Below are positions 1 through 64,000 of a DNA stretch of 64,000 nt, one piece after another. Location of the stretch: the NCBI GenBank assembly GCA_029204225.1, contig CM055102.1, forward strand, positions 25,194,780-25,258,779, read 5' to 3'. The stretch comes from Diphasiastrum complanatum (Eukaryota > Streptophyta > Lycopodiopsida > Lycopodiales > Lycopodiaceae). Made by a program: the position numbers and the translations under genes. The notes under the pieces were generated by a model. That model saw nothing but the letters and a program-made list of their open reading frames with translations. It was not told the DNA's origin and ran no database searches. The stretch's first letter is position 1, and each line of letters opens with the position of its first letter.

Positions 1-1784
1 AGAATTTGGAAAAGTCGTGCAGGAGATGTCGGACATGAGATTTAAATAGGAGACATAAAAAAGTGGACATCATCGGCAAACAACTGATGCGAGAGAGGGC
101 CTACTTGGGAGTGGACAAGAGCTACAAGGTGAAGGGAAGATGCACGGTGAAGGGCACAAGAAAGCAATGGCAAAAAGCAAGGGGAAAAGCGGATAGCCCT
201 GATGAATACCACACTAGAATTGAGGAATCCCCAAGGCTAGACAACTGCAAAGGATATAATGTCATCTGATACAATCAACGGCCTTGTCCAGGTCAAGGCA
301 TAGTATCAAAGAGGGAGTGGAGGAAGTGAAAAGGGAGTCATCTAGTGCCTACATATTAAGAATGGAGTCCGTGATGTTACATGTGAGGAATAGGGCAAAA
401 TATAGCTTTATCAGGCCAAATTTATGTACATAATGTCATTCCACATGTGTGAAGCATAGGCCTAGGTTAGCTTGTACATAATCTCAAGAGCCATGAAGGC
501 AAATAGACAAGTTTTCCAAGTTAGAATGCATTTTTTTAGATTCTAGCTTTTTTCAAGAGGTGCAATTTGATTGGATTTGTTTGAGACCTTAGGAGGTGTC
601 AAAGGACAAGTGGATGCATTGTCCCCATGTGTGAATAGTTCAGATCAGTCCAACTCTCAAGCTTTTTGTATATAGTCCAATTTGGAGCTCATTTGGAAAC
701 AACAGATCTTGAGGATTGTGCATCAAGCTTGTGTATCTCTTTCTTTGCATGCATTTTGATGAATCTAATGCTTCAATTAGTGTAAGTATTTTGCTCTAAG
801 GTTTAGCAGGCTATGTCTCACACATGTGAGGCCTATTTGATCTTTAAACATTTCGTTTAGATTGCTCTTGCTTATAGATCTACATTGTGTCAATTCTAGG
901 TGCTAGTTTTGATGGAGATGTTGATATTAATGCAACTAAAACGTCTCCCAATACTTCCAATTTTAAACCAGAAACCAAAAGTCCAACAACTAGAATAGAT
1001 TGAAAAATTTCGTTTCATGCCAAAATCGGAAAAAACCGAATCGAATTAACAAGACCATTCCAAACCGATTCATCCAAACAAAGGTAGAACACCTACTTGG
1101 AAGATCACCGATTTACCGAAAGCACACGGATTGTTGATGACACGATTCCACAGCAAACTGGTCTACACCAAGCCGCTCCCATGACCCGATTGGTTGCTTT
1201 GATGCCAATAAAAACTTCCCCCAAGACTTTCAATCCGAGTAGAGCTCCAAGAACACCAAGGGAAAGTGTAGTAGACGAATCCAACCCAACCGATTCTAGA
1301 TCTCTGTTGATCTAGCCCTTAAGTAATCCAGGAGATAGGCAATCACAATAGAATAAAAGTGCTTTGCACTTTGACAGCATAACGGCCGCAAGACTCTCAA
1401 TGATCCTCATGGAGACGGGTGAAGGTATATATAGAGCACAAAGCTTAACCCACCTGTCCATGCACCGAATCTACATGTAAGCACTAAATCAGATCATGCC
1501 AAGCTCCCATGCATGTCCACTGCATGTAGGTACCCCTAACCCATAGTAGCTAAGACCCATGCAATAGCATAGTGCATGTACATTCCATTCCATACTAGAA
1601 TGCAACACACATGCTAATACCGCATGCATGTGGTCACTTGACCCCATGGTCCTACTCAAATACTATCCAGGTTAAATCCGGTTATGTCCAAGGCACCCCC
1701 TAATGGTCCAAATTCCCATTAGGGCCATGACATCAACCAATCACTCTTGTGGATTGAATGAATCCCATTTATGATCCTAATTGT
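1..1784. other. Unassigned non-coding stretch
   Basis: I see no recognisable gene here. Short frames (for example 63-269 and 1097-1315, both plus) have no motif I know. A TATA-like run lies at 1426-1433 and a 9-bp inverted repeat (CCCTAATGG / CCATTAGGG, 9-bp loop) at 1698-1724. Repeat-derived sequence is likely given the surroundings, but no LTR ends were found. Confidence 0.4.
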
Positions 1785-2020
1785 ACTTTTCTTTCACATT
1801 ATGACCTTTCACGAAGCCGAATTGCTCAATAGACAACATGAAACTTAAGAGGGGGGGAGAGACGCAAGGCCATGGCTTTAGCCAGAACTTCATAGGAGGT
1901 ATTAAGCATGGTAAGAGGGCAAAAGCCGGCTAGTGTTAGTGGAAGGGACTTTTTGGGGGTAAGTTTGACCAGCCCTTCAGAAACATAGAGTGGGAGGGAG
2001 AGAATTGGAAGAAGAAGCAT
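1785..2020 (-). mobile_element. LINE (L1-type) reverse transcriptase relic
   Basis: Reading the minus strand from 2020 downwards, the translation contains EGLVKLTPKK, then CPLTMLNTSYEVLAKAMALRL, followed after a frameshift by IEQFGFVKGHN. In L1-type non-LTR retrotransposons the RT fingers region runs (I/V)KL(I)PK ... WRPI(T/S)LLN..YK(I/L)(L)AK.(L)A.RL ... QxGF(V/I).GR, in this order and spacing. The invariant Trp of WRP is replaced by Cys and the frame is broken near 1835, so this is a dead fragment. Neither the YADD catalytic block nor the endonuclease domain is visible nearby. The family assignment is secure from motif order; the subfamily is not resolved. Confidence 0.72.
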
Positions 2021-2369
2021 GGAGGGCTAACTGAAGAATGTTGGGTCCTAGTTGCAGCCAAAACTTAATATTGTTTTCCACACGCTTTTGTGTGCGTGCG
2101 CATAAAAGTGCACATAAAACTCTTGGTCACTTGACGAGAAAACATTTCCTCTTTGAGCTCCTTATAGAAGAAAAATTTGCTCCTATATCCAAAGCATTAT
2201 GAGGGACAAGAACTAAGCTAAACTATTTGAAAAGCATCAAAGATTCTTTCTAAAAAACTAAAGAAAAATATATACATGTATTAGCAAAGCAAATCTCAGA
2301 TGCAATGGAAAGAATAAAGCCTAATAGAGATACAACCAAACATCTATAAGCATTCATCCTCACAATCTA

Positions 2370-2575
<206 letters not shown>

Positions 2576-4775
2576 ATTCACAAAATGGAGGATTTTCCCC
2601 TTATGTTTAGTTGGGTCCAAAAAAGCTCGAGTGGCACAAGACTACTGGTCGATTACTAACCTTGAGAGTCTAAGTTAAATTGCTTTTATCTCCGTGGATC
2701 TAATTGTTGATGCTACTTCTTGTGAGATGTGATCATGGGTAGGAAAAGCATGTGGTATTGCGGATAGAAAATTGTAAAAAATCTGTTTCAAATTTAGTGT
2801 GTGATTGAATAGTTGTGGCTGTTCGTCAAAGTTAGATGGGACTAGATTTGGTTCTTGTCATCCATTCCTCCCTTTTAATGTGGTGAAGGTGAAATGAGAG
2901 CATTTTAGAATATCTTAAGGAAGATGAGCATTTACACACACACACAGACACACACACACACATTCTATTCATTTATTTATTTATACTATAGCGCTGCTTC
3001 TAGATTACAATTGAGAAGGGTGGTGCAAAGATTTGATAGAAGAGATCGAGTTGGAGCTAATCTAAAAGAATGGAAAAATAATGAACAAATATAAGAAATG
3101 AAAATAAGACAAAATAACAAATAAGAACATTGTAAAACAAGAAATTATCAAAAAAGGAGCCTTTTTTTTTTTTATTGTATCTTTTCTTTTTCCCTTTTTT
3201 TCATTTTTTACTTTATTTGAGATTATATGATACATTGGAAGTTTATGTATAGAAAAAGTGCCAGGTGACCTAATCCTTGGCCTACTCAACTATCTTTGAA
3301 GTTTTTCCTAGTTAACCACTTGATTTTGACATATTTGATTGGAGATCAATTGGGCAAAATGCTGGTGTATTGTAGCCTATAGGTGAGCTATCTCACAAAT
3401 GGGGCTAAACATGGGGTGTATGCCTTGGAGCCATTGTGTAAGCTACCATCATTCCATTCATATTATAAAAATGGAGGAGCCAAGGGTAGACCAATAAAAT
3501 GTGCGATAGATAGGGAGCCAATCAAGGCCAAGTATATATACTTTATTGAGATCAAAGTAACACTCATCAAAACAACCATCCCATGTAGCATGACTTTTGA
3601 GATCAATAGAAGAATACGATAGTTTTTCGTTGCTTCTACTACTACCTTGTCTGAACTCTATTTATACTTTTTTGCAAAATCATCAAGACTTTGTTGGAAC
3701 TCCACGAGGGTTATCCAACTCTTTCTTGATTGAATTTTGGAGAAGTTTCAATGCTCCACAATGGATCCTTCTGCCCATGTTGAACATCACATAATAATAT
3801 CTTGGATGGACCGAGGCCCAATAAAAGATAGACCTCCTCCTGCCATTTGGATTGTGATTGGAGGTTGGCAATGGTGTCTCTAAAATAGTGGGACTACAAT
3901 TTCAAGGCTAGGAATGAGAGTTTGTAGGCCCGTCAGGTTGCAAGGTCTAGTATTGAGCTAGGAAATCATGGATAAGCTTAGTCACTAGAGGTAGACATTT
4001 CTTGAAATAATTTTGGTGCACCTCGACAAGATTTGAGTGAAGATGTACGCATGTAATTAGAAAGCGTCATAGGAATCATTTTTGGGGTGGAGGGTGGATG
4101 TGCCATGTCTTGGCTTAAGTTGAGTTGATCTATGCCCAATGTTCAATCGCAAGACATGTCATGGTAAAAAAGGTGGAACATCAACCTAACCAATATGGAG
4201 ATTGGAAAAAAAAAAAGGTAGATTGCAAAGTAGCTAAGCCACGTGTTTGGGTAAGATCATAGGGGAGCTCCTTAAACGTGCATGGGCGATGTATATCAAG
4301 GTTGGCTAAATTCTTCAAGTAGTGTGCTATACCAACATTATAATAGTGTGCCAAAACAGAGAGAAAAAAGATATGAGATTCGGCTCAACGTTGAGGAGAT
4401 ATCGATGGACATCTTGTAGTTGGAGGGGCGACATGGTTATGAGAGGTGCAAGATGCTTAATGGGCTTGGATAGGCGTGGATAGTTCTAGCTAGTCCAAGA
4501 GGGTCTCTTATTCTTGTATATGTGTTGATATAGAGGGAGTTGAAATTGTAGGGGTGGATGTAGATGCAAATGCAATTTAAATGAAATTCAAAAAGTGATA
4601 TGTGTGGATAATTCTGATGTGTATGCACGATCACGACAAAAAAACAAAAAACCAAAAAAAGAGCAAATAAAACACAAATGACTGAGCATCCGAAGATTTA
4701 AAAAGTATGCAAAATGTTGATCTTAAATTATTTATGAATAACAACCAAAGTAAAAATACATTCTTTCAATTTCAT
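2576..4775. other. Unassigned stretch with a short (CA)n
   Basis: No gene recognised. A second, short CA repeat with one CAGA break lies at 2933-2962. Several 60-80 codon frames on both strands have no motif and no supporting context. The stretch around 3600-3870 is open on both strands for about 60 codons but resembles nothing I know. Confidence 0.4.
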
Positions 4776-5640
4776 TCAGAATTTGATATGCTCTTTTGAC
4801 ACGACCATTAAAAAAAAGTTAAAACTATAATGGAATATGTTATCCACAAGAATGCCAAGTTGATGTGAAAGCAATAAACAATGGTGTTCCAATTCTAGAG
4901 TGATGTTAGTGTTGGAGGCCATGTTTATTTTATTGTATTCCACAATAGCCTCATCCTTTGTCACTATCATCTACCTTAGATTCATCATTGATGTGCGCTT
5001 CCATATACTTGGCGTGGAGATCTACAGTTTTCAGTTCATTCTGTTTAAGCGTACCTTTATAGTTCTCTTGCAATGTCATCACATTTTTTTTTAAGTATGG
5101 TGTATTGGTGTTATAGTGCTCAGCTTGCTTAGACTGTCGTATAGTGTCAATGGGAGCGATTGTATCCATCTTAGCATCGTTGATAATAAAGAAATGTTTG
5201 AGCAACTTGTACAAGTTGCCTGAAGCTAACAACTTGAATTTGCAATCATTGAACAATTGCCTCATTACTTGCTAATTCTTTGCCTAAACATTCTTTAATT
5301 GACTTCCCATCTTACTTGTGTTTTGCAATAAGCTCATCAAGCCTACTCTGAAGAGCTACATTCTTCTTGCAAAGAACACGTTTATTTATCTATGAGTATA
5401 CAACTATTTTCCCACTTTTGGAATTAAGTTTGGACTATGCAGGTTGTATAGACATTTGATCTAGTTCTTATAGCTTTCTAAATCATTGGCACACATCACA
5501 TGATTTTATGGATTAGTAGACATTCTTGTGAAGGGTTGGCCATCAAAATCTTCCTTGGAGAATCTATAAAAAGTGCCCACCTCCTATTGTTCATGAGTTA
5601 ACTTTACTCTGAATTCAATTTTATGGAGTAGGACACTTCT
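4776..5640 (-). pseudogene. Degraded coiled-coil coding relic, family unknown
   Basis: On the minus strand a broken series of frames reads as one decayed protein. It begins near 5640 with a patch containing YRFSKEDFDGQPFTRM, continues (5400-5300) with a heptad-like stretch including LQSRLDELIAKHK and KECLGKELASNEAIV, and ends in a 104-codon open piece (5265-4951) with ENYKGTLKQNELKTVDLHAKYMEAH. At least three frameshifts or stops separate the pieces. Charged, Leu-spaced composition suggests a coiled coil. Gag-like or leader ORFs of plant Gypsy elements often look like this, and a Gypsy integrase relic lies 1 kb away, but no diagnostic motif links them. No function is claimed. Confidence 0.35.
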
Positions 5641-6536
5641 ATATAAGATTCAATTGGGACCTTTCTTGTAGAGCTAGCTAGTTATTAGAGAATAAGGAGC
5701 ATGTTTTAGAGTCAGCTACTCTACCTTATTCATTTTTAGAGGTCCTCACATCATAAGACATTCCGAAATATTTGCTAACCTGTCATGTGCCAAATCTCAA
5801 GCAAATAGCAATAACAATGAAGTAAAGCTAAGAGCAAGAAAAGTACAAAGCATTCAGGATAGCATATCCATAGAAAGCTAGAAACAATGAGATCTCAATG
5901 GAATCACATTAGTAATGAAAAGAAGAGTACAAGCAATGTAAATGAGCATGGATTCATGTAGATAGGGCACATGAGACCTAGCAATGGAGATTCTCATGGC
6001 TCACATTCACAAGGAAGCTAGAAGCTCTCACTTGCAAATGAGCCAAAAGATCCACAAAATGATGTCTCTTGCCTAGTTATAGACAATGCTCTTACTTAAC
6101 TTAACTATCTCGAGGGATAGTTAGCGCTTGTTAAGTATTATTCAAACTACATTGGGCCCTTATTGGCCTATTATCCTTATTACTTACTTTGAAGGGCCTA
6201 AAGAGGGAACCGCCTTGTTCTTAAGGCTAATAGCTCCTTTTGGGCCTAAAAGCTTACAATGGATATTATATTGCCTTGAAAAGCACTGATGTACTAAAAG
6301 TACATGACATAACCTCTTCGATATAACATTTACTAAAAATAAAATTGTGTCTGAAAGTTTGGTAGGTATTTCTTTGCTAGGCGGTGCATTTTGGATCCTT
6401 GATAGATGATCTAAATAGTGCTACTTCCTTTTACATACCACAATCCAAAATTCAACTTTCTATTTTAGCAACAACCATCTCTTCTATTCGTACAAGGCCA
6501 ATTAACAAAATACAACAAAGCTTGATAGTCAAAAAA
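5641..6536. other. Unassigned stretch
   Basis: No recognisable coding motif, LTR end or structured repeat seen. It sits immediately upstream of the Gypsy integrase tail and may be eroded integrase or RNase H sequence, but I could not align it convincingly. Confidence 0.35.
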
Positions 6537-7010
6537 GAATGCAAAAGGGTTAGCCAATAAATAATGTTGATATTTTTTAATGTTATAAACCATGGCAAGA
6601 GCTTCTCATTTAGAAGTGATATAATTAACCTCTTATTCATTTTGAACTACATTTAAAGTTAGTACCAATCAGACACCTTTCCAACTGATTTATGGACAAG
6701 ATGTAGTGGTGCCTAAAAAGTTTTTAATACCATCCTTATGGATCACCACAACAGAACATTTATATAAAGAAAAGTCGCTCCAATTCCGACATAAAACATT
6801 AAACAAGTCAAGTGTGAAACCCGTTGATTAACAATCCATGTGTTAGCTACAAAAAAACTCACATCAAAATAGTTGGCATGATTGATTCCTTCACAAGAAA
6901 GACTTTGAATATGGTGACCTGATTCTCATGTACAAGACGAAGTTGATCGAGGGAAATCTCAAGTTCATGAGAGAAGGCTCTTTTCGAATTAAATACACTT
7001 TATCTCAAGA
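6537..7010 (+). mobile_element. Ty3/Gypsy integrase C-terminal relic
   Basis: In one plus-strand frame with several stops, I read TTFKVSTNQTPFQLIYGQDVV (about 6635-6700), the block that follows the catalytic core in plant Gypsy integrases (usually RTT.K.ST..TPF.LVYG.EAV). About 170 bp on comes WHD ... KKDFEYGDLILMYKTKL and EGSFRIKY (about 6877-7005), which matches the integrase C-terminal GPY/F module (F..GD.VL.......GKL...W.GPF.I) with GP changed to EG. The reading frame is riddled with stops, so it is inactive. No catalytic D,D-35-E core was recognised upstream. Confidence 0.72.
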
Positions 7011-7941
7011 GTGATTTGAAAAAGTTAAATGGAACACAATTTGTAACTCCAATCAATGACAACCAATTATGCAAGTATTCGCTGTCACAAGCTTCCTAAA
7101 CCAGCGGAATCACCACTTTTATATTCACTTTCCCTTTTCCCATTCTTGTTTTCCTTAGTTATTTTTAATATTTATATAGTGAATAATTGCTCACAAATCT
7201 TTGTTGAAAAACCCTTGATAATTTTTTAAAAGGACCTTTGACATAAATTTTTTTATTAATTTATACTTAAACCTTCACATGTGAACCCTTGTCAAAAACC
7301 TTCAGCACAAAAGAAAAATCATTTTCATCATCGAGTGGGACAACCATAATCTTCTTGAAGATTAACTATACATCTCAACCATTATTGTTGACGCTATGAC
7401 AACTATAGAACAACAATTGGCTCGACTATATATGTTCATGATGAACAATTCAACAATGCTCTAGAAGGATTTACAACATAATGACCCACCCATTGCTGCA
7501 AAAACCACAATGATGTACTATTACACTAGCCTTCTCGACAAAATCAAAGTTGGTATGAAAGAATTCACATTCCATGACACCTACACAACTTTTTATGCAT
7601 GCCATCAATATTGAAACTCAAATAAGGAAAACAGAACTAAACAAAGTCTGTTCAATTTCAGTACCATTAGATGAAAGACCAAAGGAAACATTACCGATGT
7701 CAAAAGATCATGCAAATGAGGAAGACATGACATCACAATAGAGTGATGAAGACAAGTAAATGAGACCAAGTGCTACGAAATTAACAGTTGACCAAGAACT
7801 TTATCATTTTAGTGACTAGAGTCCATTGCCTAAAAAGCTTGATCATGTTGTAACTTACGGGTTGATGGATTGAATGATCATAAATTATAGAGAATGTTGT
7901 TTTACTTTTCCTATTGTAGGCAAAATTGTCCAGCAAATTCT
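7011..7941. other. Unassigned stretch between Gypsy and Copia relics
   Basis: Plus-strand frame at about 7390-7610 is loosely open and contains the patch MTTIEQQLARLYMFMMNN, which might be the N-terminus of a retroelement Gag, but nothing diagnostic follows. No other feature seen. Confidence 0.3.
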
Positions 7942-9324
7942 GGGCATAAGTGCAAGGCCAGATTAGTAGCAAAAGGTTTCTCTCAGAAATCGTGTATAGA
8001 TTACTTTGAGACTTTCTCACCAATTGTGAAAATGACCACCATTCAAGTTCTGCTTTGTTTGGCAGTCTTGTTCAACCTTGAAATACATCAAATTGATGTT
8101 AAAACAACATTTCTACATGGAGTACTAGATGTGGAAATTTTTATGGAGCAGTCACAGGGCTTTGCCAATAAGAATTATCCCAATCATGTGTGTAAGCTCA
8201 ATAAGAGCATCTATGGATTGAAACAGGCTACAAGAGTGTGGTATAAGAGGATTGATTAAGTCAATAGGTATGATACCATTGAATGCCGATTGTAATTGCA
8301 AGAAGGCCCACAACTTCTTATACATGACACTCTTCGTAGATGACTCATTGTTGATTGGGAATTGTGGTAAGCTCATCCAAAAGGTGAAAAGCTTATTGGA
8401 TCATGAGTTTGGAACTAGGTGAGGCAAAGGTTTGTGTTGGCCTGTAGATTGCAAGGAATAGAGACGAAGGAACAATTCTTTTATATCAAAGCAAGTATGC
8501 TTTGAAGATTCTGAGGGACTATGAGATGGAGAATTGCAAGGGCAAAAGTACTCCAACGGAAACACGAGCAAACTTAACATTGGAAGACAGTCCCAAAATA
8601 GAAAAAGAGAAGAAAGAAATAGAATGAATTCCATATAGAAACCTGATTGGGAGCTTAATGTACTTGGCAATGTGCACAAGGCCTAACATAATTACGGCAA
8701 TATACACTCTCGGTCAATTTGGAAATAATCCAGGACCAAAGCTTTTATAGAATGGCAAAGTGGATAGCGCAATATGTCAAGATGACACCACATTATGGCC
8801 TAATGTATAGGCAAAATGCAAATTGTACACTATTACCATACAACGATGTGAGCTAGGCAAATTCTAGAATTGACAACAAGTCAATTTCAGGTGGTTGTTT
8901 CATAATGTGTGGAGCAGCAGTGAAATGGGTTTGCAAAAAAAAATCCCTGGTTGCTCAATCATCCTGTGAAGTGGAGCACATCACAGCATCGAAGAATGCC
9001 AATGAGATTGTCTGGCTTAGATTCTTACTCCAAGAGCTTGGGGTGCTGCAGCAAAAGATCCCACAGTGATAAACATGGATAGCAAGACTGCAATTTGCCT
9101 TATAGAGTATCCATTTTTCTACAGACCAAGCATATACTTTTGAAGTATCATCATGTCAGAGATCTGATCCAGAAGGGGATGCTCATTCCAAGGTACATCA
9201 AATCTGCAGACATGTCTGCAAACATTCTGACAAAGCCATTGTGCCAGCCATCGTTCATAAAGCATCGAATGGGCTTGGGAATCACTACAAATTGTATGAA
9301 TGGTTCCTCGGTTCAAGAGGGAGC
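7942..9324 (+). pseudogene. Ty1/Copia pol relic A (RT and RNase H)
   Basis: This is the 3' half of a Copia polyprotein with many stops. The open part at 7942-8259 holds RT blocks KARLVAKGFSQ, the IHQIDVKTTFLHG block and YGLKQATRVWYKR. Shifted frames carry the catalytic box as FVDD (about 8328). RNase H follows (about 8840-9070) with [16 protein letters not shown], the usual Copia RNase H signature. The C-terminus (9095-9324) includes KYHHVRDLIQKG and NILTKPL, the standard end of Copia pol. Gag, protease and integrase are absent upstream, so the element is 5'-truncated. It ends at a short polypurine tract, AAGAGGGAG, at about 9315-9323. Confidence 0.85.
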
Positions 9325-39198: not shown

Positions 39199-39786
39199 AT
39201 TGTGTTTCAAATTATGAAAGGATCATCCATTTTTAGCAAGGATTTGGAGGAGTTACCAATGCTAGAGCATGCTAGATTGATTTCTACTTAAAAATCAACA
39301 TTTTTGCATATGTAGATTGGATCTTTTGTAGGTCAAAACTCAATATAGGATTATATACTTGATCAATTCCGATTTCACACTTGTTTTACTGGAATTAGAT
39401 GATTTTCGGTGCAATAGGAAGGTCTCATTGGAGGCTACAAGAAGATTTATCAAGTTTTTAGAAATTGCATGTAGAATTTGAGATATTCAAATTCTTGTGG
39501 TTTTGTCAAAACCCTAATTTTGATTGGATCTCTAGTTTGTGAGGTTACTGAACTTAATTTTAGTGTGTTTCAATCTTAGTAAATGGCAAGAATCATTATA
39601 TTGAGGATAGATCATAGGTTGATCAAGATTTCACTATTCTATGTGTTGATTTTCTAGTTAGAGTGCTAGAAGAGATTTGAGAGGTTCCATATCTTTGTGA
39701 TTTCTTCTTGAGTTCATTTGTTGACATTCAAGAGAGTGCTTTGTGCATTGGAACAAGTTGAAAAAAGAAGATCAGGTCATTGCAAC

Positions 39787-41030
39787 ATGGCTACAAGTGG
39801 TGGATTCATGTTGGAAGGCAATGATAGGCTTACCTCAATCAACTATTCTACTTGGAAGGTGAGGATAGAGTCCTTATTGGAGATGAATGAGTTGATGGAA
39901 ATTGTTGCAGGTGTGGAGGAGAGGCCTCAAGCACCTCAAGATCAAGTGAGGTATGACAAGAGAGCTAAAAGAGCTTTACACATGATTAAGATGAATGTTA
40001 CCAATGAACTTCTCAAGGAGATTGGTAAGTGCACATCATCTTTGGAGGCTTGGGAAGCTTTGAAGAAGCTTAATGAATCCAAGTCTACATCAAGAGTGCT
40101 TACTCTTAGGAGACAAATCTTTCAAAGTTTGCAAAAGAAGGAAGAGAGTACTCATGCTTTTGTTTTGAGGGTTAAAGCATTCAATGATGAGTTAGCATAT
40201 ATTGATGAGAGCATTAAGGAGGTAGAACTTGTTCAAGTTATACTTAATGGCTTGTTGGATGATCATGCTAATCTTGTTTAGAGTTTTGCTATTCAAAAGA
40301 CTTTGCCAAGTATTGTGGATCTGCAAGAGATCTTGGTGAGTGAGGAATATAGGCTTCAATCAAGAGGAGGTGGATCTACATCGACATCTCATTATGAAGA
40401 GGAGGCTATATTCATGAAAGGCAAGTTCAAAGGCAAAGGAGGCAAGTGGTCTAAAGGGCAAGATCAAGGTGAGAATTCCTCTTTTGGCAAAAAAAAAGAT
40501 AAGTCTAAGTTAAAATGTTTCTATTGTGGAATCAAAGGACATTTTGCAAATGAATGTTTGAAGAAGCAAAGAGATGAAGGTAGCAAGCAAATCAACTTTA
40601 CTACTAATGATGAGGATCTAGGTGGTGGTGATTCTCTTTTGATGTGTTCTTCAAGTCTAATATCAAGTGAAGGTGTCAAAGATTCATGGTGGATTGATAG
40701 CGGAGCTAGTTGACACATGACTAGTCACAAGGAGTTCTTTACTTCTTTGGTCGCTTATGATGGAGTCAAGAAAGCAATTCACATGGCCAATGGTGGTGAG
40801 TGTGTGATTGAAGGTATTGGTTCAATTCCTATTTGTCTCTCTACTGATAGGAAAGCAAGACTTGATCGTGTTCTTTACATTCCTTCACTTTCAAAGAATT
40901 TTCTAAGTTTTGGTCAAATGATAGAGAAAGGATACATGGTAAAGTTTGGTGGTGATGCTTGCTTCATTACAAAGAAAGAAATCTTGGTTGCTAGGGGCAA
41001 TAGACAAGGTAGACTTTTCAAGCTTGATGC
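39787..41030 (+). pseudogene. Copia D gag-protease, two in-frame stops only
   Basis: Starts at ATG 39787 (MATSGGFMLEGNDRLTSINYSTWK). The Gag core has LHMIKMNVTNELLKEIG and LVQVILNGLLDDHANLV; a TAG at 40279-40281 is the first interruption. The knuckle is CFYCGIKGHFANEC (from 40516). The protease active site WWIDSGAS is intact but is followed at once by TGA (40711-40713) where elements B and E have Ser or a similar residue before HM. The flap and LYIPSLSKNFLSFGQM follow in the same frame. Apart from the two stops the frame is open from 39718 to 42048, which is unusual next to the other decayed elements here. Confidence 0.85.
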
Positions 41031-59689: not shown

Positions 59690-60680
59690 CTCGCCAGACA
59701 CTTTGTGGCATAGAAGACTCTGCCACATGAACTCAATGGCACTTTACCAAGCAAGCCATCATGGAGTGATAACAGGGGTCAACATCTCGAATGCAACCAG
59801 TTCGACCACCTGTAATGCATGTTTGAAGGGCAAGATGTCACGCACTCCATTCATCAAAGACTCTTACAGAACGACTAAGATTATGGAGTTAGTGCATTAT
59901 GACATCTGCGAACCATTCAACGTGATCTCAGTAGGAGGTTCAAGATATTATATAACCTTCATTGATGACTATAGCGAATTTGCCAGAGTGTATTTTATCT
60001 AGAATAAATCTGAAGCAGTCGATAAATTCATAGAATATGTGAATTGTGTTGAAAGATGTATAGGCAACAAGGTTAAGCAGATCAAGACAGATCGAGGTGG
60101 TGAATACATCTCGAATCGATAAACTAACTTCTGCAATGATCGTGGCATCATTCACAGAAGAACTGCAGCCTAAACATCACAACACAATGGTGTTGCAGAA
60201 AGGAAGAACAAAACCATGATGGAAGCAGCCAGATGCATGATGGCCTACTCGAAAGCTCCAAGGGTGTTGTGGGCTGAAGTAGTAGCTACAATCGCATACA
60301 TCCAGAACCAAACATACAGTCTAGTGTCCCTCATGTGACACCACACGAGCTATGGTGGAGTAGAAAGCCCAATCTGTCTCACATCAAAATCTTTGGTTGT
60401 GCAGCCTATGCACATATTTCTGATAAGCTTCGAAAGAAGCTTGATGAGAAAGCCGAGCAGGGATTTCTGGTAGGTTATGACAACAATTCATCATACTACA
60501 GAATCTACATGCTAGACACGAACACTGTAAAAACAGTGAGAGATGTCAGATTTGATGAGAGCAGGACAATGGCCAACGATGATCCTTTCAGCTACGAAGT
60601 CTTGGAGAGACAGTATTATGACCTGCAGCCAGTGATAGAGGGAGCAGAGGACGAACACGAAAACGAAGATCTTTGAGTCA
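59690..60680 (+). pseudogene. Copia F integrase
   Basis: Starts abruptly at the edge of the neighbouring LTR with the pre-integrase zinc region LWHRRLCHMNSMALYQ ... CNACLKGKMSRTPF (H, H, C, C). The core has ITFIDDYSEFARVY (first Asp) and KTDRGGEY (second Asp), then a stop, and NGVAERKNKT with the third catalytic Glu intact. The tail (60335-60676) has MTPHELWWSRKPNL, FGCAAYAHISDKL, FLVGYDNNSSYYRIY and VRDVRFDES. Stops at about 60001, 60121 and 60171, plus a frame change near 60330, inactivate it. It is closer to element C than to B/E, judging by the RT entry sequence downstream. Gag, protease and the 5' LTR are absent. Confidence 0.88.
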
Positions 60681-60959
60681 TCTCCCATTCGAACGATGAA
60701 TCAAAAGAAGAAAGATTCGAGAGGTGACCTGTTGCCGCAGTTCTTGTAAACCAAGATGGTTTTGAACCAAGCAGAGCAGACAAAGGCAAAGGCATTACTG
60801 TCCCAGGAGGATTTCCAAAAGGTCGACAAGACCTCGAAGAGTGCCAGCAAGATATGTGCCAGGCAGCTCAGTTTCAATATCAGAAGAGTTCTGCGGATTC
60901 GATGGAGAACCACAGACTTTCGAGGAGGCGATTGACAATCCAGACAAGGACAAATGAAT

Positions 60960-62165
60960 CCAAGCCATGAACGAAGAGATGGAGTCCATGAGGAAGAACC
61001 AGGTATGGATGTTGGAGCCATTACCACATAAGCGCAAGATTGTCAAATGCAAATGGGTTTTCAAGCTCAAATACGGACCAGATAGAAATGTGACAAAATA
61101 CAAGACAAGACTGGTAGAGAAGGGATTCTCTCAGACTACTCTAAAACCTTCTCCCGTGTCGTCAAACATTCGTCCCTATGTTTGTTATTTGCATACGCAG
61201 CAGCTTATGACATTAGGATCCACATTTTGGACGAGAAGACAGTCTTCTTGCATGGCGAACTAGACGAAGAACTCTATATGGATCAACCCCTAGGATTTGT
61301 CTCGAATTCACTTCCTGACTATGCATGCAAAATGCATAGAAGCATCTACAGTCTGAAACAATCAGTCCGACAATGGTACAAGAAGAAAGATCAAGCCCTG
61401 AAATCATTGGGATTCAAGTCTCTGTTGGCTGATTCTAGTGTATATGTCAGAGTTACAGATGGGCAGATTATCATTGTGGCTGTATATGTGAAAGACACTC
61501 TGATACTTTGTAGGAGGGAGCAGCTAATTGCTGAAGTGAAGATAGACATCTTGAAACATTTCAAGATCGTGGATCTGGGAGAAGCCAGGTATTACCTAGG
61601 CTTATAGATTGAAAGGGACTACGAGGGAGGTAAGTTATACCTTCACCAGTCCAGATACACCCTAAAGATCCTAGAGGACTTTGGGATGTTGAACTGCAAA
61701 GGAGCAAATACTCCAATGCTTGTAGGGATGGTGCTAACAAGCGACGACTGTCCGAAGACTGAGGAAGAGAGAGAACAGATGCAGCTCACACCTGACAGGA
61801 AGCTGATAGGATCACTGATGTACCTTGCAGACAACACACGTCCTGATATTGCTCATGTAGTATTCAAGATGAGCCAATTTTGCACATTGGAAGATTGCGA
61901 AACAAATTTTGCAATATCTTTAATTAACAAGGGATTACGGGCTGTATTATTGTCGTGGTGCAGATTTCAGGATACTTTCCTATAGAGATGCTAGTTGGGC
62001 ATCTCTCAAGGATGATTGTAAAAGTGTCTCAGAAAAATACACCATCACATCAGGAGCAGTAGTTCTCTTGGTCAGCAAGAAGCAGACCATTGTAGCCCAG
62101 TCATCCTGCGAAGTAGAGTACGTTGCATCAGCAAAGATGGCCAACGTAGTTCAGGGTGCTTGTGA
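60960..62165 (+). pseudogene. Copia F reverse transcriptase and RNase H, interrupted
   Basis: RT entry EMESMRKNQVWMLEPLPHKR and CKWVFKLKYG (60967-61120), a frameshift at about 61140, then LDEKTVFLHGELDEELYM, SIYSLKQSVRQWYKK and the catalytic box YVKDTLILC (61485-61511), in which the first Asp of YVDD is Lys. Connection LNCKGANTPMLVG and RPDIAHVVFKMSQF. RNase H (61990-62150) has DASWASLKDD in a shifted frame and TIVAQSSCEVEYVASAKMAN, then Copia homology ends suddenly and unrelated sequence begins near 62166. Confidence 0.88.
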
Positions 62166-63838
62166 TTTTGCAGGTATTAGCAGGGAAGCATTTGCAACAA
62201 TATTTAAACTAATTAGAGAAGCTTTTAAGCAAGTTCAAATTAGAAAAGTCCCAATCTCTAGGACATATCACTTGAAGAAAGAGAGGGATACATTAAACAT
62301 AGGTATGCATAAGATCACTAGAACTCCATTTCATATTGAGGTGTATGAAACTGATGGAAGATCGATATTCTATAATTCATCAAACAATTTATTTGTTGAT
62401 CTAAATTACTTGCTGAGATACATCATCACATTCTATGATATAACCTATGAAAAGGTGAATGGCAAAATAATCATAGTACTTAAGTTAGATGACTCTCATG
62501 AATGGTGCTCTATCACAAACAGAGAACCAAGAAGATTTCAGATTCAGTGTCTAGTCAAAAAATGATATATGGTGGTTGGCAATGTTTCAAGTAACTAGCC
62601 TCATTATTACATTACATTCATTGAATAGTATTAATACATCGTAAATTAAGTCTGATTAATTTTTTTGGACAGGTGCTAAAAGAGGATCATGATATATTAT
62701 CATGGATATTCTCAAGGACATCTTATCCTAGAATCATCAAGGACCATATGGATGGAGGACTTCTCAATGTTCCAGGAGTTGGAGACTTCAATGTTGAATG
62801 GCACTTAGGAGGTGATTTGAAAACATTGAAATGTATGTATAATGTCTCTCACGGTGCTACATCAAAACACCCTTCTTTGTACTGCATGAAAATGGCAAAA
62901 GATGTAACTAGGAGTACATGAATTACTAGAGAATATGTAGATCCAAACTGGAAGCCTGTGCTGTCTATCCCCTTAAAAAATGTGCATGTTTGCGCTCTTC
63001 ATGCAGAAGTTAGATTAATAGAAAAGATCATTTATCTTCATATAGTAAGCCAGCATCATTAGCAAAGGAAGCTATCTCTCGATTGGAAGATATTTAATCA
63101 AAAGCAGGACTCCATAAAGGACATGTCAAAATTCAAAAAGATGAAAAGCTTTCAGAAAGAATGGGAACATGTCAACTAAACCAAGCATAGGAGGAGCAAA
63201 AGCACGTCGTTTCCTATCAAATCATACTGGTAGGGCTTCTAATATTCAACACTCAGTCTGGACATATATTATTGCTGCTACTCAGGACTTCAAGAAAGAT
63301 GGCAAAACCATAATACTAAAAGTTGATGTATGGAAAAAGCTTGATAGTATGATTGCTATTTTAAGAAAAGAAAAATACTCTGATATTGATAAAAAAAAAG
63401 CTGTCCAAAGGACTTGTGTTGAGTTTGTTAATGCAATATCAAAAACATGGGGAGATGATCACATCACTCATTACATGAGTAGTATTAAATTCTTAAAATG
63501 CTTTCAATTTTCATATATATTTAGATCCAAACATAAGACTAACATTATGATTTTGACATATGCAGCACATAATAAGAGATCATACAACGTTTTTTGCAAA
63601 TACATATGGAAGCTTGAGTGTATGGTCATCACAAGGGATGGAGAAGTCACACTGGCAAGCACGAGCAGCATTTCATCGAAATACACAACATGGAGGAACC
63701 AATGAAAAACAAAACTACATTTGTCAATTGTTTCAATGGTTCTACTGCAGAGTTCAGATTCGAAATATAACAAAGTCCACACAATACAACAAGTTTAGAA
63801 AAGCATGCAAGTTCATACAGGAAGAGAAAATTAGATGA
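62166..63838 (+). pseudogene. Broken, probably intron-bearing gene of an uncharacterised transposase-like family
   Basis: Four coding pieces in one direction. (1) 62173-62562: REAFATIFKLIREAF, then FHIEVYETDGRSIFYN and IIIVLKLDDSHEW. (2) 62673-63043, after a good 3' splice-site-like TTTTTTTGGACAG: WHLGGDLKTLKC followed by GATSKHPSLYC, then an in-frame TGA at 62919-62921 and IPLKNVHVCALHAEVRLIEKI. (3) 63108-63480: KPSIGGAKARRFLSN and VWKKLDSMIAILRKEKY. (4) 63560-63835: FANTYGSLSVWSSQ, GMEKSHWQARAAFH, RNTQHGG, LFQWFYCR. From memory, a poorly named protein family in animals, fungi and protists has a GGDxKFL ... ATSxxxC.WC block, an LHA..R..EK block and a GMEKSH ... HGG end in this order. That match is unverified. 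No transposon ends found. Confidence 0.5.
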
Positions 63839-64000
63839 TTGTTGAGTAGAAGATCATCATTGTCATCAAATCATGACATGTTCAAAATTGATTTGCAAAT
63901 TCAATGAACAAGGAAAGAGAAATACTCAATGTAAATGTATTGACTGTATTATACCAAATACAAAGTGTCAAATATTCATTATTAGATCTTGTGTCAGATT

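Follow-up and report, generated by a model that had tools for sequence, protein, structure and literature searches.

Transposases of the RAG1/Transib/CACTA ("CMCT") clade are described in PMC12730594 as having C(2)C and H(3-4)H motifs between the second D and the E. The members listed there are EnSpm/CACTA, Mirage, Chapaev, Transib, Plavaka, ESTA and Lanisha, with 5'-CA..TG-3' termini in most of them and target duplications of 2-5 bp. Transibs typically make a 5-bp target duplication (PMC4411706), and Spy transposons insert without target-site duplication and prefer AAATTT (PMC4482050). Genes related to chromatin are also found on transposons: fungal transposons carry TET/JBP dioxygenases (PMC12730594), and fungal hAT elements amplified a captured housekeeping H3, which was inactivated by RIP in P. 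fijiensis (PMC6710886).

The gene described here lies in a window, i.e. the whole stretch of 64,000 nucleotides that was analyzed. It is likely (a probability of roughly 80 %) that this gene is a decayed transposase fragment of a multi-gene plant DNA transposon with its own histone H3, the working proposed below included. The transposon family is of the cut-and-paste type, and its histone gene lies outside the window. In the partial open-access library that was searched, no publication describing a selected H3 gene carried by a plant transposon was found, which does not imply that none exists. The features of the window around the transposase gene (gene A) are as follows.

60278..62147, + strand: decayed Copia-like element, broken at the transposon junction (a label from reading of translations, not from a profile search)
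62147..64000, + strand: 5'-truncated copy of the ~9.5-kb inverted-repeat DNA transposon, running past the window end
62147..62590, + strand: gene A exon, 3' part, with the putative first catalytic D (codon 62488-62490)
62591..62672, + strand: putative gene A intron (donor GTAACT after CAA; acceptor TTTTTTGGACAG followed by GTG; the corresponding sites were used for copy L014)
62673..63477, + strand: gene A exon with the putative second catalytic D (62814-62816), CxxC and the LHAEVR block
63478..63565, + strand: putative last intron of gene A (acceptor ATATGCAG)
63566..63838, + strand: last gene A exon with H (63566-63568), H (63581-63583), the putative catalytic E (63641-63643) and the stop codon (63836-63838)

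The fragment corresponds to element positions 1420-3334 of the copy L021 (90.6 % identity over 1,924 columns, blastn); pairwise match limits were also computed among 20 loci and listed for six of them. One sister copy, L009, shares 99.7 % identity over a 9.7-kb stretch that includes the Copia-like flank. Two deletions were seen in the window copy: 44 nt that L021 and L024 have after 62491 are missing, as they are in L009, and 16 nt that L021, L024 and L009 all have are missing after 63045. In addition, the first Cys of its CxxC is changed to Ser; the motif GS..W.S.GME in its last exon holds the putative catalytic E. The intron at 63478-63565 was deduced from other copies, by their reading frames and splice-like ends, rather than from a transcript, and its donor reads GTTAGT in the L024 copy and AGTAGT in the window copy. 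Pfam gave no meaningful match to the gene A pieces of the window, and Rfam and tRNA scans of the window returned nothing.

A preliminary description of the window had reported four coding blocks on one strand, and these are present in the order given; as many matching copies occur in the host genome, the blocks are more than chance. The splice-acceptor-like TTTTTTGGACAG ending at 62672 is matched by an AG acceptor in the other copies that were read (GGACAG in L024 and L014, GGATAG in L021), the in-frame TGA is found at 62919-62921, where L024 reads through, and the frame change is seen in exon 2. What that inventory overlooked was the second intron at 63478-63565. Two of its details are consequences of decay. 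LKLDDSHEW had been taken as a motif, whereas only LKLD is native and SHEW belongs to another frame; other copies read LKLDESEIVKGQKIERVGITLMNGAL at this place, and the artefact is due to the 44-nt deletion after 62491. Likewise, the 63-nt GT-AG intron proposed at 63045-63107 is coding in L021 and L024, and its apparent GT was created by the 16-nt deletion after 63045. The gene had also been described as inserted in the Copia-like element. However, the fragment begins inside the transposon, at element position 1420, and no inverted repeat was found at the junction at 62147, where the window and the intact element have only the short stretch TAGTTCAGGG in common. Thus, we concluded that the junction at 62147 arose by truncation or repair and does not mark an insertion end.

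When the host genome was searched with the DNA of 62166-63838, 47 matching places were observed in 40 scored candidates (window included) with 88-100 % identity, and exon 2 had at least 142 protein-level matches with 92-100 % identity. Sequences of 10 kb were taken around 20 copies, among which L017/L018 and L020/L023 are near-duplicate loci, and about 300 kb of the host genome were read. Of the 20 loci, 15 have the exact 5' end CATTAGAGGAGTTCTC and one more has it with a single mismatch; it was absent in the remaining four, including the window copy and L009. The best-delimited copy, L021, is 9,530 bp long and has perfect 31-bp inverted repeats (CATTAG...CTAATG, 31/31 bp). With up to one mismatch, the terminal 22-mer occurred 961 times in forward and 1,010 times in reverse orientation (1,971 in total) and the reversed control did not occur. 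The L021 element carries at least four genes, and the copies align to it collinearly over the part that each one covers. Most copies read in detail are broken. The positions of the genes (relative, 0 = window 62166) are given below.

about -950 to 1722, + strand: gene A
about 1870 to 3554, - strand: gene B
about 4190 to 5170, + strand: gene C (the histone H3 variant)
about 5763 to 6967, - strand: gene D

Pfam returned no meaningful match for genes B and D, and no transposase feature was recognised in them. In gene B, acidic stretches and a candidate Cys motif (CPYCNKKC) were noted.

A second subfamily of the element was observed at L057 (G000:C8:18045680-18047600), where gene B lies divergent upstream of H3. 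The DNA of its B/H3 region shares 82 % identity with L021 and 92-93 % with L027/L013, whereas the difference between L021 and L027/L013 is far smaller in gene A. This pattern suggests mosaic or recombined elements. A further copy, L016, is nested in an opposite-strand copy of its own family and is a clean example of self-insertion.

Both ends were read for nine elements (four in the loci and five on contig C1), and none of the nine (0/9) had a target-site duplication. For four insertions, the two flanks were joined and aligned to copies of the target sequence that carry no insertion there. Three of them (L010, L016 and C1:60101101-60110116, the last being L049/L050) join exactly at empty sites, one of which lies in this window:

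39492..39945, + strand: Copia gag-like stretch, the empty target site for the L010 copy

Along this stretch the joined L010 flanks align without a gap across the join (400 bases on the left, 53 on the right). In the case of L016, 14 of 17 distinct aligned copies are gapless across the join, one has a one-base gap and two have a ten-base gap; the L016 flanks show a chance 2-bp repeat, which is native and not a duplication, as the empty sites show. For C1:60101101-60110116, all 40 listed Copia empty sites span the join (93-94 % identity), 34 of them exactly from 180 to 180 bases. The fourth insertion, L043/L044, had matches to either half and none across the join, and the join itself reads open. 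Insertion thus makes no target-site duplication.

Gene A looks like a DDE transposase with the CMCT layout. In L014, three blocks spliced at this copy's own sites give an open frame of 629 codons, the last donor being GC rather than GT, and a coiled-coil-like N-terminus precedes the candidate DDE core. The D, D and E stand at the places and spacing expected of the CMCT triad: the arrangement in L014 is D-96-D-249-E, compared with 108/254 in RAG1. Counted from the second D, the CxxC stands at +20/+23 (+19/+22 in RAG1); counted from the E, the HxxxxH stands at -25/-20, which is identical in RAG1. Over the stretch IT.Y.H....H........GS...W.S.G.E, 12 of 34 residues are identical to RAG1 in an ungapped alignment (pairwise BLASTP E=0.001). 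The RAG1 sequence was checked against PDB chains. The seven-residue putative catalytic/zinc layout was reproduced in 4 of 50,000 shuffles of gene A, and a score as high as that of the selected RAG1 window was reached in 1 of 20,000, both sets of shuffles having been run after the likeness, mainly one 34-residue ungapped stretch plus spacing, had been noticed. In an all-versus-all comparison of gene A and RAG1, the best 42-residue window scored 58 (maximum 49 in 400 shuffles) and lay on the motif diagonal (runner-up 20). The transposase HzTransib (6pqn) has its best-scoring match to RAG1 in the same C-terminal region (query 330-399, E=0.003). By sequence, the spliced reading of gene A had no meaningful match in Pfam, nor to any solved structure in PDB. 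The RNase H-like catalytic fold and the zinc site of gene A are predicted features.

Selection on gene A is weak. Among its four blocks, only A_E1 had a shared pN/pS in the coding frame that was below the values of the two alternative frames; this was not observed for A_coil, A_E2, A_E3 or B1, and it was observed for B2 in the coding frame. The pooled singleton-versus-shared tests were also weak (Fisher p 0.014 for A and 0.029 for B).

The RSS heptamer is CACAGTG. Like RAG1 and Transib, the element has the D-D-E order and spacing, CxxC, HxxxxH, GS...W.S.G.E and termini that begin with CA. However, its termini read CATTAGA rather than the RSS-like heptamer, it makes a 0-bp instead of a 5-bp duplication, and gene A has no detectable similarity to RAG1 outside the 34-residue stretch and the spacing (~600-aa core). 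The host here is a plant, and no RAG2-like gene was recognised. Membership in Transib was rejected on the duplication, the heptamer and the core similarity. Spy (PHIS superfamily) shares duplication-free insertion with the element; an AAATTT target (AAA^TTT) was found at none of the nine insertion sites and the transposase layout here is RAG1-like, and membership in Spy was rejected on the target preference. As for the CMCT clade as a whole, gene A of L014 contains C(2)C and H(3-4)H (the window copy is without the first Cys) and the element has 5'-CA..TG-3' termini, whereas the duplication is 0 bp instead of 2-5 bp and gene A has no Pfam transposase match. Because the motifs and termini agree with CMCT and the duplication does not, we consider that gene A probably works like a CMCT/RAG1-type transposase and did not file the element as Transib, RAG or Spy. 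The suggestion of a transposase in the preliminary description, which had been offered as a guess, is supported by the terminal inverted repeats, the many copies, the precise insertions with empty sites and the DDE, CxxC and HxxxxH layout.

Gene C encodes a histone fold with a conserved KRVTIMPKD and a C-terminal extension of ~200 aa. Pfam Histone (PF00125) matched the 329-aa intact frame of copy L056 (E=4.2e-27) and the L021 piece (5.5e-26), and the best PDB matches were H3 chains (E=4e-21). Over ~80 residues, the fold shares 54-58 % identity with canonical H3 (58 % with plant H3.1) and 55 % with Arabidopsis CENH3. The tail (MDRRKQTRRDFFSPG...) is without K9 or later tail lysines, while the canonical H3 tail has K4, K9 and K27. 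In L056 the tail reads MDRRKQTRRDFFSPGSSSSPAVAITPPARPRTDNRSRW, with a single lysine in a KQT context; its likeness to K4 was judged by eye and the MAFFT alignment does not place it so. L021 also has one tail lysine, L057 has two adjacent ones and L024 has KYT in place of KQT.

A search of the host genome for the element H3 gave at least 150 places (86-96 % identity), and 19 of the 150 matches listed have open frames of at least 331 aa without a stop (counted by hand). When canonical H3 was used as the query, full-length matches were obtained at 13 loci (97-99 %), together with a few partial ones (79-93 %) and a long tail of matches at 44-57 %, of which one sampled member (L057) belongs to the second subfamily of the same element. 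Nine of the 13 full-length canonical loci are on C11 (30.7-31.0 and 50.4-51.8 Mb), the window's own chromosome.

The element H3 is under purifying selection. Between L056 and L057, dN/dS was 0.28 over 305 codons (95 % interval 0.18-0.42), with 0.11 (0.04-0.23) in the fold and 0.46 in the C-terminal part, and none of 1000 bootstraps reached 1 or more, either whole or in the fold. When 11 copies of both subfamilies were compared, the shared pN/pS was 0.28 in the H3 frame and 1.05 and 0.76 in the other frames, with 0.79 for singletons (Fisher p=0.0005 for shared versus singleton N/S). This test is not independent of dN/dS, since differences between the subfamilies are among the shared variants. 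The shared pN/pS of C_tail was mildly lower in its own frame (0.43 vs 0.55 and 0.65; singletons 0.49). From dN/dS we concluded that the histone is a selected working part of the element and not a passive cargo.

In the fungal case the carrier is also a DNA transposon that amplified an H3 gene, whereas here the H3 is divergent, has a C-terminal extension, is kept by selection and is carried by a different kind of element. The TET/JBP transposons likewise carry a chromatin/epigenetic gene beside the transposase; it is an enzyme there and the histone itself here.

Other explanations were weighed for both genes. The RAG1 likeness could be a coincidence, with gene A being another nuclease or a carried gene that is not a transposase. 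The missing profile match, the shortness of the similarity and a test made only after the likeness was noticed speak for it, but seven putative catalytic and zinc residues spaced as in RAG1 (4/50,000 shuffles) and the same diagonal picked by the whole-versus-whole comparison speak against it, as do termini that fit the CMCT clade and genes B and D without a recognised transposase feature; we consider coincidence unlikely. Alternatively, the element may belong to a lineage that already has a name, for example Lanisha, and only the histone would be new. Lanisha goes back to Maumus, McDaniel and Carey in 2020, who reportedly work on mosses. It is listed with CMCT motifs in PMC12730594, which however assigns duplications of 2-5 bp to the whole clade, and we regard membership in such a lineage as possible but doubtful.

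In the case of the histone, one alternative is that a host H3 was captured and simply copied along, for which the fungal hAT elements are a direct precedent (PMC6710886). This reading is very unlikely, as it is opposed by the dN/dS of 0.28 (fold 0.11) between the two subfamilies, by a synonymous excess of shared variants in the H3 frame only (0.28 vs 1.05 and 0.76 in the 11 copies) and by the 54-58 % identity to canonical H3, the signal being milder (0.46) in the fused C-terminal region; a purely passive cargo would agree with the purifying signature only if repeated capture or host gene conversion explained it. Another alternative is a variant of the CENH3 type that directs insertion towards centromeres or interferes with them. 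CENH3 has a loop 1 that is longer than that of H3 by two or more residues, but the alignment of gene C shows one extra residue. At 39 fold positions at which plant H3 and Arabidopsis CENH3 differ, the element agrees with CENH3 at 10, with H3 at 13-14 and with neither at 15-16. Pfam matches to the CENP-T and CENP-S histone folds lend the CENH3-like reading some support, although both are below the curated cut-offs. The inverted-repeat ends do pile up on C1, where 28 of 100 listed matches are within 64.9-66.7 Mb. However, all five sampled C1 matches (5/5) share one left flank, so that the cluster at 65-66.7 Mb is one insertion amplified locally; centromere targeting was rejected for this reason, and the listed matches of the element H3 and of exon 2 are spread over many contigs. 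We consider a CENH3-like role improbable.

Under the preferred reading of a multi-gene plant transposon with its own H3, the RNase H-like core of gene A (D, D, E and the CxxC/HxxxxH zinc site) would bind the inverted repeats, excise the element and join it to target DNA without a stagger, leaving no target-site duplication. The H3 variant would be produced from the element's own gene and incorporated into nucleosomes, most probably those that lie on element DNA or close to it. Without K9 or any later tail lysine, and with a lysine kept in a K4-like KQT context, such a histone could resist H3K9-methyl silencing or help the transposition complex to engage chromatin. The function of the variant is probably anti-silencing or chromatin targeting; deposition on the element and its purpose are proposals, the anti-silencing role being suggested by the tail. 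A more specific form of this reading is a plant lineage of the RAG1/CACTA supergroup that combines blunt, duplication-free integration with a silencing-resistant H3 (no K9/K27) blocking H3K9-methyl heterochromatin on element DNA, and we put it forward only tentatively.

With these results, an active-site layout like that of RAG1 is placed in a plant transposon, an inverted-repeat transposon of this layout is seen to insert without target duplication, and selection is shown to have maintained an H3 variant among the genes of a transposon. A transposon carrying a histone is surprising because selection has kept the histone intact. If the histone is deposited on element DNA, this would be a new escape of selfish DNA from silencing and a natural experiment on the H3 tail residues needed for it; a selfish element would then edit chromatin through a histone that it supplies, not through an enzyme. 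In addition, some genes annotated as divergent "H3 variants" in plant genomes may belong to transposons, as the host genome has at least 150 places of the element H3 against 13 listed full-length canonical H3 loci.

Four scans of viral_contigs for relatives confirmed none: 34 pattern matches were not confirmed by tblastn, and two further motif matches were due to chance. On C1, 64.97-66.68 Mb contains a dense local amplification of one element insertion with strand runs, which might be a large duplicated or centromeric array. A long GA-type microsatellite, judged from the translation, lies just past the decayed right part of L024 (relative 7778-8023). An rbcL-like nuclear fragment (G000:C9:23504858-23505082, 85 % identity over 75 aa), which supports a plant host, was also observed and is probably plastid DNA in the nucleus.
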